From positions 130,006-194,005 of the forward strand of contig FIZJ01000011.1 of assembly GCA_900019385.1 (NCBI GenBank): a DNA stretch of 64,000 nt. The letters are read 5' to 3'. The DNA comes from an uncultured Clostridia bacterium. Lineage in GTDB: Bacteria; Bacillota; Limnochordia; Darwinibacteriales; DTU012. Shown in pieces: positions 40,647 to 45,707 of this stretch (positions are counted from its first letter, which is position 1; each line of letters begins with the position of its first letter). The position numbers and the translations under genes are program-made. Under the pieces are notes generated by a model. The model was not told the origin of the DNA and ran no database searches. It saw nothing but the letters and a program-made list of their open reading frames with translations.

Positions 40647-40898
40647 CTACTGCTGGCGGAAAACACTCCCGAGCGCAGTCGCCTGACTGGCCAGCGCTTG
40701 CTCCGCCGAAGCGATCATTTTACGGACCATGTGCCCTCCGACAGCGCCGCACTCTCTGGAAGTGATATTCCCCCAGTAGCCGGTTTTGTATTCCGGGTTT
40801 ATATTCAGTTCTTGCGCCACTTCATATTTGAATTGGTTCAGTGCGTTGTATGCCTGAGGCACTAATTTTTGATTCGAAGAACTGGAACCAAGCGCCAC
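40647..40898 (-). CDS. Alpha/beta-type small acid-soluble spore protein
   Basis: LNQFKYEVAQELNI (GPR-site-like), GYWGNITSRECGAVGGHMVRKMIASAEQ. Confidence 0.92.
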   Translation of the reverse strand: MALGSSSSNQKLVPQAYNALNQFKYEVAQELNINPEYKTGYWGNITSRECGAVGGHMVRKMIASAEQALASQATALGSVFRQQ

Positions 40899-41025: not shown

Positions 41026-41053
41026 GGCAGGAAAAGGAGTGGATGTGTTGAAC
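41026..41053 (+). promoter_or_regulatory. Candidate sigma-H promoter of rnf-like operon
   Basis: GCAGGAAAA-N11-GTTGAAC; -35 perfect, -10 one mismatch. Confidence 0.5.
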
Positions 41054-41153
41054 AATATAACGTGCGTTAGCTCCAGGTTATTTAGTTAAAATGATTGTGA
41101 AAGGATTCTTAAGTACAAATCAAATCCGCGACTGCGAGAAAGGGTGTGTAAAG

Positions 41154-42464
41154 TTGTTGGTCAAATCATTCCCCCGTGGTGGTGGCCATATTCCGCACCG
41201 CAAGGATGCGACAAAGAATAAACCGATTATGGTCATGCCCGCTCCCAAATTGGCGGTAATCGCCTTGAGCCAGCATGCCGGGGCTCCCTGCAAACCGCTG
41301 GTCCAGGTAGGGGATCGGGTCAAACTGGGGCAGAAGATCGGCGACGCCGAGCCGTATATTTCCGCACCGGTCCATGCCAGTGTGTCAGGCCAAGTGGTGG
41401 AGATTGCCGAGAAGACACTGCTGGACGGCACCAAAGCATTGTGCGTGGTTATCGAGAACGATGGGCTCGACGAAACCGAAGAGCAAGCTGCGCAGGATTA
41501 TTCCCGGCTGTCCCCGAGCCAAATCGCCGGTTTGATTAGGGAAGCGGGAATTGTCGGATTGGGAGGGGCCGGGTTCCCCACCCATGTCAAAACTGAACCA
41601 AGAAAACCGGTTGACACGGTGCTGATCAACGGGGCTGAGTGTGAGCCGTATCTGACCTGTGATCACCGGTTGATGATCGAACAACCGCAGAAGCTGATCG
41701 AAGGCCTGAAGATCCTGATGCAGGCTGTAGGTGCCGGCCAGGGCATTATTGGCGTTGAGCTGAACAAGCCTGACGCCATCCGCGTTCTGGAGCAAGTCTG
41801 CGCTGAGCAGTCCTATATCCGGGTTGTGGGCCTTAAGGTCAAGTACCCGCAGGGTGCGGAAAAACAGCTGATCAAAGCGGCTCTCGGCAGGGAAGTGCCT
41901 TCCGGCGGCCTGCCGGCCGATGTTGGGTGCATCGTCCAGAATGTCCAGACGGCTGTCGCAGTCGCCGACGCGGTGGTGCGGGGCGTTGGGCTCTATCAGC
42001 GGGTAATCACCGTAGCCGGAGCGGCTGTGTACGATCCCCGCAATGTGTTGGTGCGGGTAGGCACTCCTATTCAAGAAGTGATTGATTACTGCGGCGGAAT
42101 GGCGAATCCGGCCGCGATTGTGGCCGGCGGGCCCATGACCGGCAAGCTGATCCAGGACTTGACAGCGCCGGTGACCAAGCCTCTGTCCGGTATTCTGGTA
42201 TTGTCTAAAGACGAAGTTGATTACGAGTTGAACCTGCCGTGCATCCGGTGCGCCCGCTGCGTCGATCACTGCCCCATGGGCCTGCAGCCGAATTATCTGG
42301 CGGATTGGAGCAGCAAAGGGCTGTATGATCAGGCCAAGCGGAACCATATCATGGACTGCATCGAATGCGGCCTCTGCTCGTATGTATGCCCGGCCAAACG
42401 GGGACTGTGCAGGTCTATTCAAGCGGGGAAACAAGCTGTAAGAGCTGGTAAGACAGCAGTTTAG
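41154..42464 (+). CDS. rnfC: RnfC-like electron transport complex subunit
   Basis: SLBB/NADH-binding GLGGAGFPTHVK, INGAECEPYLTCDHRLM; CIRCARCVDHCP and CIECGLCSYVCP clusters; start codon uncertain (TTG 41154/41157). Confidence 0.9.
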   Translation: MLVKSFPRGGGHIPHRKDATKNKPIMVMPAPKLAVIALSQHAGAPCKPLVQVGDRVKLGQKIGDAEPYISAPVHASVSGQVVEIAEKTLLDGTKALCVVIENDGLDETEEQAAQDYSRLSPSQIAGLIREAGIVGLGGAGFPTHVKTEPRKPVDTVLINGAECEPYLTCDHRLMIEQPQKLIEGLKILMQAVGAGQGIIGVELNKPDAIRVLEQVCAEQSYIRVVGLKVKYPQGAEKQLIKAALGREVPSGGLPADVGCIVQNVQTAVAVADAVVRGVGLYQRVITVAGAAVYDPRNVLVRVGTPIQEVIDYCGGMANPAAIVAGGPMTGKLIQDLTAPVTKPLSGILVLSKDEVDYELNLPCIRCARCVDHCPMGLQPNYLADWSSKGLYDQAKRNHIMDCIECGLCSYVCPAKRGLCRSIQAGKQAVRAGKTAV

Positions 42465-42478
42465 CGGAGGTGGGTCAC

Positions 42479-44503
42479 GTGAATGCAAAACAGGAATTGT
42501 GGGCACCTGTAATCAGAGCAAAAGACACAATCCCCCGGATCATGTTCGATGTTGTCTTGGCCCTGATTCCGTGCTGGCTGGCGGGAATCATCTTTTTCGG
42601 TTTTCGTGCGTTCTGGATTGTGCTGCTGAGCGCTGTGACCGCAGTCTTGGCCGAGGCGCTGTTCATGCGCTACCCTCTGCGCCTGCGGAGTGTTTTCGGC
42701 GACGGCAGCAGCTTGGTGACAGGATTGATTGTTGGCTTGATTCTACCGCCGACAGTACCGTGGTGGATCCCGGTTGTGGGATCGGTTGTGGCGGTTGCCA
42801 TCGGGAAGCTGGTGTTCGGCGGCCTTGGGAATAATATCTTTAATCCGGCCTTGGTTGGACGGGCAGTCCTGCTTTTAGCCTTTACGGCTCCAATGGTCAA
42901 GTATGTCCGTCCGTTTGACGCTGTGACCGAGGCCACACCGCTGTTGACCATGCGGTCCTTCGATTGGGCGTTGATCTGGGGCAATGTCAGCGGCAGCATC
43001 GGCGAAACATCAGTTATCGCCATACTCATTGGGGCAGCTTACTTGCTCTACAGAAGAATTATTGACTGGCGGATTCCCGTCGGTTATGTGATCACTGCCT
43101 TTGCGGCAGCATATGTCTGGGATCTTGACCCTTGGGTTGCCGTAACAGCAGGGGGACTGCTGTTCGCGGCTGTTTACATGGCGACAGACATGGTTACATC
43201 CCCAGTCAACCCCATGGGCAGGCTGCTGTTTGGCTGTGGGTGCGGTCTACTCACCATTATGCTGCGGAAATACACTTCTTTTCCGGAAGGGGTCACTTTT
43301 GCCATTCTCACCATGAACGCCCTGGTGCCTCTCTTGGATATGCTGACTGTCCCCGTGATTTTCGGCGCCGAGCGCAGCAGGGAACAGCGGTTTGCCACGA
43401 CGGCCGCGGTGGCGTTGGTGATCATCCTGGCTTGGGGTGTCTTGTTCGCAATCAACAAGACCGTTCCGGAAGGAGTGCCGGTGACTGCGGAGGGAGTGTA
43501 TCTGCCGCTGGTGGAAACCTTGGGTACCGATGTCTATGAGACTGCCACCATCAATGACAAGGTCTACTACTTCACCGGCAGCCGGGAGGCTCCGGAGAAA
43601 GTGGCTGTGGTTGGCGCGGAACAAGGATACCACGGGCCGATTTACTTCTACCTGGTTTTGGACGGCAGCGGCCGGATCGAGCATCTGCAGATACTGACTC
43701 ACAGCGATGATCCGGGGCTGGGCAGCCTGATTACACGCCGTTCGTTCTTGGATCAGTTTATCGGGCTGGATACAGCCGAACTGGCTATGGATGTGGATAT
43801 TCAAGGCATCACGGGAGCCACCATCTCATCCCGGGCGGTGATCAGAGGTGTCACCGGCGAATTGGAGCGTTTCCAGGAGGCCTTCTACGGCGGAGAGGAA
43901 GCTGATGCCGGCGCAGGCTACGCAGATGGTGTCTACACGGCTGAAGCCTCTGGTTTTGGCGGGCCGGTCAAAGTAGAAGTCACCATCGATCAGGGCAAGA
44001 TACTCGCTGTCGCGGTGTTGAGCCACAGAGAAACGCCCGGGATTTCCGACGAAGCGATCAGGCTGATGCCGCAGCGGATTACAGCCGCCAACAGCCCAGA
44101 TGTGGATCTGGTGAGCGGAGCGACGCTTACCAGCCGGGCAATCAGCGAGGCGGTGAAAAAAGCTTTGGCTCAGGCAACCCGGACGGAAGAGAATGGTGCC
44201 AATGCAGAAGAACCGGCTGTTGATATCTCCAGCATTCCCGATGGTGTCTACCGCGGAACTGGAACAGGCTTCGGCGGCACTATCGTGGTTGATGTGACCG
44301 TCTCTGGCGGCAAGATTACTGCGATAGACATAGTTGAGCACGCCGACACGCAGTTTATAGCCCAAGCGGCCTTCAGCCAGATGATCCCGGCCATGATTGA
44401 ACAGCAGACTATCGCTGTCGATGTGCGCGCCTCTGCCACACTCAGCAGCAAGGGGCTGTTGGAGGCCGTGGAAGCTGCCCTGACCGGAAAGGAGGCCAAA
44501 TAA
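42479..44503 (+). CDS. RnfD-RnfG fusion with three FMN-binding domains
   Basis: RnfD polytopic domain (FDAVTEATPL) continuous in frame with RnfG-like FMN_bind (GITGATISS), second FMN_bind (DLVSGATLTS) and third, degenerate FMN_bind (DVRASATLSS). Confidence 0.88.
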   Translation: MNAKQELWAPVIRAKDTIPRIMFDVVLALIPCWLAGIIFFGFRAFWIVLLSAVTAVLAEALFMRYPLRLRSVFGDGSSLVTGLIVGLILPPTVPWWIPVVGSVVAVAIGKLVFGGLGNNIFNPALVGRAVLLLAFTAPMVKYVRPFDAVTEATPLLTMRSFDWALIWGNVSGSIGETSVIAILIGAAYLLYRRIIDWRIPVGYVITAFAAAYVWDLDPWVAVTAGGLLFAAVYMATDMVTSPVNPMGRLLFGCGCGLLTIMLRKYTSFPEGVTFAILTMNALVPLLDMLTVPVIFGAERSREQRFATTAAVALVIILAWGVLFAINKTVPEGVPVTAEGVYLPLVETLGTDVYETATINDKVYYFTGSREAPEKVAVVGAEQGYHGPIYFYLVLDGSGRIEHLQILTHSDDPGLGSLITRRSFLDQFIGLDTAELAMDVDIQGITGATISSRAVIRGVTGELERFQEAFYGGEEADAGAGYADGVYTAEASGFGGPVKVEVTIDQGKILAVAVLSHRETPGISDEAIRLMPQRITAANSPDVDLVSGATLTSRAISEAVKKALAQATRTEENGANAEEPAVDISSIPDGVYRGTGTGFGGTIVVDVTVSGGKITAIDIVEHADTQFIAQAAFSQMIPAMIEQQTIAVDVRASATLSSKGLLEAVEAALTGKEAK

Positions 44504-44504
44504 C

Positions 44505-45101
44505 ATGTCACTGAGAAGGACTTTTATCAAGGGGCTTTGGCGGGAGAATCCCATACTGCGGCTGGCGATCGGCCTGGTCCCGGCTTTGGGAATCACCCAT
44601 CTGGCTCTCAACGGTGTTTATCTCGGCCTGGCCACCACCATTGTGCTGCTGGCCGCTGTCTTAGTGAAGATTCTTGTGTCTGAGTTCGTCTCTAAAGATG
44701 TGGGCGTCTTTGTCGATCTCGCCTCCTTGACCATATTCACCACTTTGTTGTACCGGCTGACAGGGAACTATCAGCCTGAGCTTCTTGTTCAGTTGGGTAT
44801 CTATTTGCCGCTGGTCGCGGTGAACGGATTTGTGCTGCAGAGGCTGTCGGTGGACCAGCCGCCGTCGGCCCGGATCATGGATGCTTTGGGCATGGGGTTG
44901 GGCTACACCGCTGTCCTGACCGTGATTGGAATTATCCGGGAGTTTGTCGGTTTGGGACAGTTCTTCGGCACAGCGGTCCTGAACGGATCCCTGACTCCGT
45001 TTTCTCTCGCGGCTACCGTGCCCGGCGGATTTGTCATCGTTGGCTTGCTGATCGCTCTCTACAATGCTTTGAGCGGAAGAGGAGGGGAAATCGATGAATG
45101 A
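44505..45101 (+). CDS. rnfE: RnfE-like membrane subunit lacking cluster cysteines
   Basis: ENPILRLAIGLVPALGIT, LGIYLPLVAVNGFVLQRLS, MDALGMGLGYTAVLTVIGIIREFVG. Confidence 0.85.
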   Translation: MSLRRTFIKGLWRENPILRLAIGLVPALGITHLALNGVYLGLATTIVLLAAVLVKILVSEFVSKDVGVFVDLASLTIFTTLLYRLTGNYQPELLVQLGIYLPLVAVNGFVLQRLSVDQPPSARIMDALGMGLGYTAVLTVIGIIREFVGLGQFFGTAVLNGSLTPFSLAATVPGGFVIVGLLIALYNALSGRGGEIDE

Positions 45102-45645
45102 CGGGCTGAAGCTGTTGGCAGAGGGTGTGATCACCCACAACCTGATTTTGTTCCAAGGCCTGGGCATTTATGCCCTGCTGCGTTTCACCAAATCGATCTG
45201 CACTGCGGCCAAAGCGGCCTTGGTGATGCTGGCGGCGACAATGACGGCCTGCGCTCTGGTTTGGGGCACACATTCGCTGATACCGCACAATTACAGCATG
45301 CGCCTGCCGTTCGATCTGCTGATCGCCCTGGCGGCGGGGCTGTTTTGGCACAAGCTTTTGGCACCGGTTTTTGGCAAAGATGAATCGGTGGATCTGCGGG
45401 CAGCATTTTTCAACTCCGCCCTGGTCGGGGTCCTGCTGGCGGTGCCGGAAGGCCTGCCGGAAGGACCGGGAATCTTCAGCTACGGCATGGCCTATGCCGT
45501 GGGGTATGGTGTTGTGCTGATCATTATGGCGGGCATCCGAGCCCGTTTGGAATTGGTTAATGTCCCCAGACCGTTCAAAGGAGTGCCGATTCTGTTGATC
45601 TCCGCTGCGCTGCTGGCACTGGCTCTGATGGGGTATAGGCTGTAG
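45094..45645 (+). CDS. rnfA: RnfA-like membrane subunit lacking canonical cluster cysteines
   Basis: HNLILFQGLGIYALLRFTKS, AAFFNSALVGVLLAV, YGVVLIIMAGIRARLELVNVPRPFKGVPILLI. Confidence 0.82.
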   Translation: MNDGLKLLAEGVITHNLILFQGLGIYALLRFTKSICTAAKAALVMLAATMTACALVWGTHSLIPHNYSMRLPFDLLIALAAGLFWHKLLAPVFGKDESVDLRAAFFNSALVGVLLAVPEGLPEGPGIFSYGMAYAVGYGVVLIIMAGIRARLELVNVPRPFKGVPILLISAALLALALMGYRL

Positions 45646-45678
45646 GTTTCACTGATAATCTTGTGGTTTTGCTGGAAC

Positions 45679-45707
45679 AGTGTGGGGAGCAGTCCCCACA
45701 CTTTTTG
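45679..45707 (+). terminator. Rho-independent terminator of rnf-like operon
   Basis: AGTGTGGGG-agcagt-CCCCACACTTTTT. Confidence 0.92.

Follow-up and report, generated by a model that had tools for sequence, protein, structure and literature searches.

A 64,000-nucleotide stretch of DNA from an uncultured Clostridia bacterium (the window) carries an rnf-type operon that has no rnfB and whose RnfA and RnfE subunits have lost the cysteines of their [2Fe-2S] cluster. We use x for this system together with its homologues in other genomes. Judging from comparative genomics, x is probably a one-way electron-export complex that descends from a duplicated rnf operon through loss of rnfB and of the RnfA/E cluster. 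We also lean slightly towards a fuller reading, in which x would form a third functional class beside RNF and NQR: a sigma-H-timed, one-way exporter of electrons from NADH to extracytosolic multi-FMN domains, with RnfA/E as a cluster-free scaffold, that arose from rnfB loss after duplication and kept the electron half opposite to that of NQR. All evidence on x rests on sequence, mostly from MAGs.

Organization of the window operon

The gene order given in the initial annotation, rnfC, an rnfDG fusion, rnfE and rnfA, was borne out by open reading frames and Pfam domains. The features are:

41027..41055, plus strand: sigma-H-type promoter-like element GCAGGAAAA-N11-GTTGAACAA, conserved in two congeners
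41056..41153, plus strand: conserved leader, not translated, that includes a ribosome-binding site ahead of TTG 41154 (two-congener alignment)
41154..42464, plus strand: rnfC, RnfC-like subunit with a predicted NADH oxidation site (Pfam Complex1_51K, SLBB, RnfC_N; NCBIfam)
42479..44503, plus strand: rnfD-rnfG fusion with two extra FMN_bind domains (Pfam NQR2_RnfD_RnfE and three FMN_bind)
44505..45101, plus strand: rnfE, RnfE-like subunit with zero cysteines (Pfam Rnf-Nqr)
45094..45645, plus strand: rnfA, RnfA-like subunit with the cluster cysteines replaced (Pfam Rnf-Nqr, 53.9 bits)
45679..45707, plus strand: intrinsic terminator between rnfA and comEA (fold energy)

The TTG at 41154 had been proposed as the start of rnfC, correctly so: in each of the two close relatives, single-base indels interrupt the longer frame from ATG 41091, and in the two-congener alignment these indels mark the leader (41056-41153) as noncoding. 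An Rfam search of the leader returned zero matches. The rnfD-G frame is open from 42470, and its likely start is GTG 42479, which aligns with ATG in relatives. The terminator predicted at 45679-45707 forms a 10-bp stem (-21.6 kcal/mol, z -3.7) and was not among the hits of a simple consensus terminator scan. Open reading frames and profile searches agreed with the claim that no RnfB frame lies beside the operon, and no gene for NqrF (FAD/2Fe-2S NADH dehydrogenase) or NqrA was found within or adjoining it.

The NADH and outer-flavin modules are retained

RnfC had been credited with NADH/FMN motifs and two four-cysteine clusters, and both are present. The protein has the 51K-type FMN/NADH domain and the two [4Fe-4S] clusters that characterize RNF, and all eight cluster cysteines are kept in each of the 13 x copies (13/13). 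It scores 512 bits on the NCBIfam rnfC model (cut-off 246), far higher than on nqrA models, and its closest solved RnfC structures are 7zc6 and 9eri.

The RnfD part of the fusion keeps the DxxTxATP motif of RNF with its covalent-FMN threonine, T156, which is invariant in 13 aligned x copies. The FMN domain of RnfG is likewise retained, fused to RnfD, and is one of three FMN_bind domains in the window copy (two to six in relatives). Flavinylation-type threonines lie at residues 156, 451, 552 and possibly 657 of the frame, counted from 42470; two [S/T]GA[S/T]-like motifs are clear and a third, DVRASAT, is degenerate. The window fusion thus combines several FMN_bind domains with flavinylation motifs, as multi-flavinylated proteins do. 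A low-confidence AlphaFold model (mean pLDDT 67.5) places three FMN_bind folds after RnfD, connected by a helix; it matches RnfG, the RnfD of 7zc6, and the first domain of the multi-FMN protein CbFMN4. A 1289-aa D-G protein in genome G031 was dropped as evidence on fusion length, since a large part of it is a run of N.

RnfA and RnfE have lost the ligands of the [2Fe-2S] cluster

Loss of the cluster between RnfA and RnfE, already suspected from the window, holds throughout: all four ligand cysteines, a defining feature of RNF, are absent in every x copy. At the ligand columns, cysteines occur in 0/30 x-RnfE and 0/29 x-RnfA sequences, compared with 44/44 canonical or NQR-type homologues. The window RnfE is free of cysteine, and the two cysteines of the window RnfA occupy non-cluster positions. 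The canonical proteins encoded elsewhere in the source genome carry C25/C113 in RnfA and C26/C109 in RnfE, which correspond to the cluster ligand positions of the C. tetanomorphum complex (PMC9588780). In x-RnfA, one ligand position is taken by Tyr (27/29) or Phe, and the other by Ser, Thr or Gly. Replacement metal ligands were considered and rejected, as the 30 aligned RnfE and 29 aligned RnfA sequences show no conserved Cys or His in their place. The window RnfA is predicted to fold like Rnf/Nqr proteins, with a mean pLDDT of 71.6 and a TM of 0.72 to A. woodii RnfA.

A canonical rnf operon in the same genome

Elsewhere in the source genome, an assembly of 2.17 Mb in 71 contigs with 97.7% completeness, lies a full canonical operon, rnfCDGEAB-apbE (minus strand of a different contig, L006 5793-11751), so that the genome encodes a normal RNF plus x. 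The initial annotation had called for a genome search for rnfB and apbE: neither lies beside the window operon, so that x lacks the RnfB (FeS domain PF04060) expected in an RNF operon, but the genome holds one of each, both in the canonical operon. They are the sole FeS-domain RnfB and the sole ApbE found there.

RnfB is encoded in nearly all x-bearing genomes, and the canonical RnfB, together with ferredoxin, might still feed the x complex. We regard such a hybrid as very improbable: in every x copy the four ligands of the A/E cluster, to which RnfB delivers its electrons, are lost with no conserved Cys or His in their place, and the shortest distance between RnfB and RnfC carriers in RNF is 25 A (PMC9588780). 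The one RnfB present was accordingly rejected as a partner of x, the cluster that it would feed being missing. With RnfB and the A/E ligands absent order-wide and the constraint on A/E lifted, the proposal that x is not a ferredoxin:NAD oxidoreductase is well supported. In one genome (G034), x is present in an assembly without canonical RNF or ApbE, which missing contigs may explain.

Distribution and selection

The suggested survey of relatives, carried out by profile searches, recovered x in 30 of the 37 genomes of the order, which lies within the class Limnochordia, and in all five sampled families; the named records are Bacillota and Limnochordia MAGs. The same searches did not find x in the 36 genomes of the class that lie outside the order. 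With the RnfA profile, x copies score at least 222 bits in a 398-genome sample of the phylum and everything else at most 109. Every contig-complete x operon has the order C-DG-E-A, lacks rnfB and has intact frames; rnfC was seen in 14 of the 30 x genomes, several x copies being cut by contig ends. The neighbourhood is alike across families (nadD, lytR-type, rsfS, methyltransferase, x, comEA, comEC, holA, gpr). In G002 and G007, which belong to the same family as the source genome, these neighbours flank an empty site of ~0.4-0.7 kb, and absence in G004, G028, G030, G045 and G048 is weakened by fragmented contigs.

Of the columns invariant in canonical homologues, all x copies keep 54/69 in RnfC and 29/48 in RnfD, and 11/55 in RnfE and 11/64 in RnfA. 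Between families, x copies of RnfC and RnfD resemble each other about as closely as the canonical proteins do, and those of RnfE and RnfA far less: identities between genomes G000 and G031 are 56% for x and 61% for canonical RnfC, 65% and 67% for RnfD, 42% and 63% for RnfE, and 41% and 67% for RnfA. The x clade receives 100/100 support in trees of E+A and of C+D; its stem measures 2.29 substitutions per site in the former and 0.85 in the latter, and neither tree settles its nearest canonical relative. All four x genes show dN/dS of 0.04-0.11, a sign of purifying selection. Taken together, the low dN/dS, the kept C/D columns and the diverged E/A columns indicate that x is under selection and that constraint has been lifted mainly from the ferredoxin-side membrane module, A/E. 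The operon is ancient, and the simplest account is that it was inherited vertically within one order, with some loss.

The initial annotation had named a second canonical operon as the finding that would expose x as a pseudo-operon. Such an operon exists, A/E diverged fast, and the clean empty sites of two relatives mean that x is dispensable, all of which would suit a decaying, functionless second rnf copy. This explanation is nonetheless barely credible, and we rejected it on the purifying selection and the conserved order and synteny across families; frames are intact in complete copies, the RnfC cluster cysteines are kept in all 13, and the promoter is conserved.

A sigma-H-type promoter-like site often precedes x

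A candidate sigma-H promoter had been noted upstream of rnfC. With the motif RNAGGAWWW-N10-13-RNNGAATWW and at most one mismatch (background ~0.01 per upstream region), a site is conserved in both congeners and precedes rnfC in 10 of 13 x operons, versus 1 of 12 canonical operons. The source genome encodes spo0H/sigH, scoring above the curated cut-off. Sites of this kind also lie ahead of comEA, both in several x genomes and in two that lack x; the x locus may therefore share a sigma-H regulon with DNA-uptake genes.

A putative route for electron export

In RNF, electrons pass from ferredoxin via RnfB, the A/E [2Fe-2S] cluster, the FMN of RnfG, the FMN and riboflavin of RnfD, and RnfC to NAD+, and NAD(H) and the outer FMN are connected through RnfC, RnfD and RnfG, a path that bypasses RnfB and A/E (PMC12174285). 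Since removal of RnfB and the cluster leaves just this part, and the outer FMN domains are multiplied, we infer that x exports electrons from NADH, as the initial annotation had proposed. NADH would reduce the FMN and [4Fe-4S] clusters of RnfC, and electrons would then cross the membrane via the riboflavin and FMN of RnfD to reach the outer chain of covalent FMNs, which would pass them to an extracytosolic acceptor. Without its cluster, RnfA/E would persist as a scaffold, a docking site or an ion gate, and the canonical operon's ApbE, the only one found in the genome, would attach FMN to x. Sigma-H would time expression, in transition phase, sporulation or competence.

The midpoint potential of NADH is -320 mV. 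For one multi-FMN protein that has been characterised, a midpoint of -184 mV is reported (PMC10339131), downhill from NADH, which can reduce it. Electrons could in principle also flow inward, with an extracytosolic donor reducing the FMN chain and NAD+ being reduced at RnfC, much as forward RNF runs from RnfG through RnfD and RnfC toward NAD+ (PMC12174285). We consider this quite unlikely, as the potential of about -184 mV, known from one measured case, is too high for NAD+ reduction without energy input, and a conserved outer low-potential donor is missing beside the operon. Further points against export are the G034 assembly without ApbE, the degenerate third FMN motif and the lack of a conserved acceptor. 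The source genome encodes a secreted fumarate-reductase-like protein with FMN_bind and FAD_binding_2 domains and a NusG_II neighbour (L195 1384-3138), which was rejected as a general acceptor for x because other x-bearing congeners have no match to it. A small FMN_bind protein is encoded near an RseC homologue.

Electron flow in one direction, outward, would run down the membrane potential rather than build it, unless RnfD or A/E also lets ions pass. In a rival explanation, NADH oxidation and outer FMN reduction would drive RnfD and the cluster-free A/E through conformational cycles, and Na+ or H+ movement would be the main product of a redox-driven channel or pump. Either RnfD or RnfA/E is proposed as the ion path of RNF (PMC12174285), and A/E is retained although cluster-free. 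However, the A/E ion model requires reduction of the cluster (PMC12174285), outward one-way electron flow opposes charge export, and the constraint on A/E is largely lifted; we thus judge ion movement unlikely to be the main product.

Relation to RNF, NQR and similar systems

Like RNF (RnfABCDGE), x has the RnfC cluster ligands and the RnfD flavin threonine, and its homologues follow the order C-D-G-E-A; unlike RNF, it lacks RnfB and the A/E ligands, and has a D-G fusion with extra FMN domains and a sigma-H-type promoter. Na+-NQR (NqrABCDEF) is proposed to have originated from a duplicated rnf operon minus rnfB, whose RnfC later lost its cofactors (PMC4014512). NQR keeps the cluster, gained NqrF, and has an NqrA without the NAD, FMN and FeS sites of RnfC, whereas x kept the opposite half: the RnfC sites are retained, the cluster is lost and NqrF is absent. 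As two defining features of RNF are missing and the NQR features tested were not found, x is filed as neither. It shows that losing rnfB can lead elsewhere than to NQR, and would be the mirror image of NQR's presumed origin.

The NQR/RNF-like systems are proposed to move electrons one way, from NAD(P)H to extracytosolic FMN via an NqrB/RnfD homologue (Meheust et al. 2021, PMC8238504; mSystems 2024, PMC11334425). In these two-subunit systems, the membrane subunit lacks the conserved threonine and is fused to an NAD domain of the NqrF type (PMC8238504, PMC11334425). In x, by contrast, NADH enters at RnfC, the threonine is kept, RnfE/A are retained, and RnfD is fused to FMN_bind rather than to PF00175. 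Its predicted parts fit the single one-way path from NAD(P)H to outer FMN, and we infer that x works most like these proposed systems, with different parts.

A search of the open-access literature gave no description of an RNF clade lacking both RnfB and the cluster. An order-wide clade without RnfB and the A/E ligands amounts to a naturally occurring knockout of the ferredoxin branch, in which one can test whether RnfC, RnfD and RnfG suffice for an NADH:extracytosolic reductase, and whether a cluster-free RnfA/E still has a role, such as scaffold or ion gate, a question relevant to the dispute over how ions cross RNF.

Clusters with multi-flavinylated RnfG, in which several FMN_bind domains are a proposed route to other extracytosolic acceptors, differ from x in that they are RNF clusters defined by the presence of RnfB (PMC8238504). 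Rsx, the SoxR-reducing complex of E. coli, resembles x as a relative of rnf that serves a purpose besides energy conservation, but it keeps RsxB and its acceptor, SoxR, is cytosolic (PMC12174285).

Redox loci in the source genome and its relatives

The RnfB-less operon (rnfC, an rnfD-rnfG fusion, rnfE and rnfA) is also present in a relative (G034; contig C33, locus L092), in whose 95% complete assembly no canonical RNF, RnfB or ApbE was found. Either contigs are missing from this assembly, or the genome depends on the RnfB-less operon alone.

FMN_bind proteins are encoded elsewhere in the window's source genome:

L193 1372-2450 (contig C7): single-FMN_bind protein and RseC/MucC homologue
L195 941-3138 (contig C49): FMN_bind and FAD_binding_2 reductase with NusG_II neighbour

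The L193 protein (119 aa) is membrane-anchored, and its one FMN_bind domain closely resembles the extra FMN_bind domains of the window's RnfD-G fusion. Its gene is adjoined by that of the RseC/MucC homologue; RseC is tied to Rsx/Rnf in other systems. The secreted L195 reductase (585 aa), whose gene adjoins that of the NusG_II protein, is of the flavocytochrome-c/fumarate-reductase type and has no match in the other congeners carrying the RnfB-less operon.

G002, a relative from the same family, carries an NQR-like operon between two rubrerythrin genes:

L038 6236-11859: nqrB-C-D-E-F

No nqrA adjoins this operon within the locus neighbourhood, and an nqrB-C-D-E-F-type core recurs in further genomes of the order (L037, L039 and L091). 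The operon is possibly an NqrA-less NQR tied to oxygen defence, with the absence of nqrA judged beside the operon only.

Sporulation and sigma-H-like signals

One ORF lies upstream of, and divergent to, the RnfB-less operon:

40647-40898, minus strand: small acid-soluble spore protein-like ORF

From this, the bacterium probably forms spores. Several genomes of the order also have sigma-H-like sites ahead of comEA-comEC: the sites lie in the rnfA-comEA gaps of eight RnfB-less loci, and at L217 and L219 in two genomes that lack this operon (G002 and G007).
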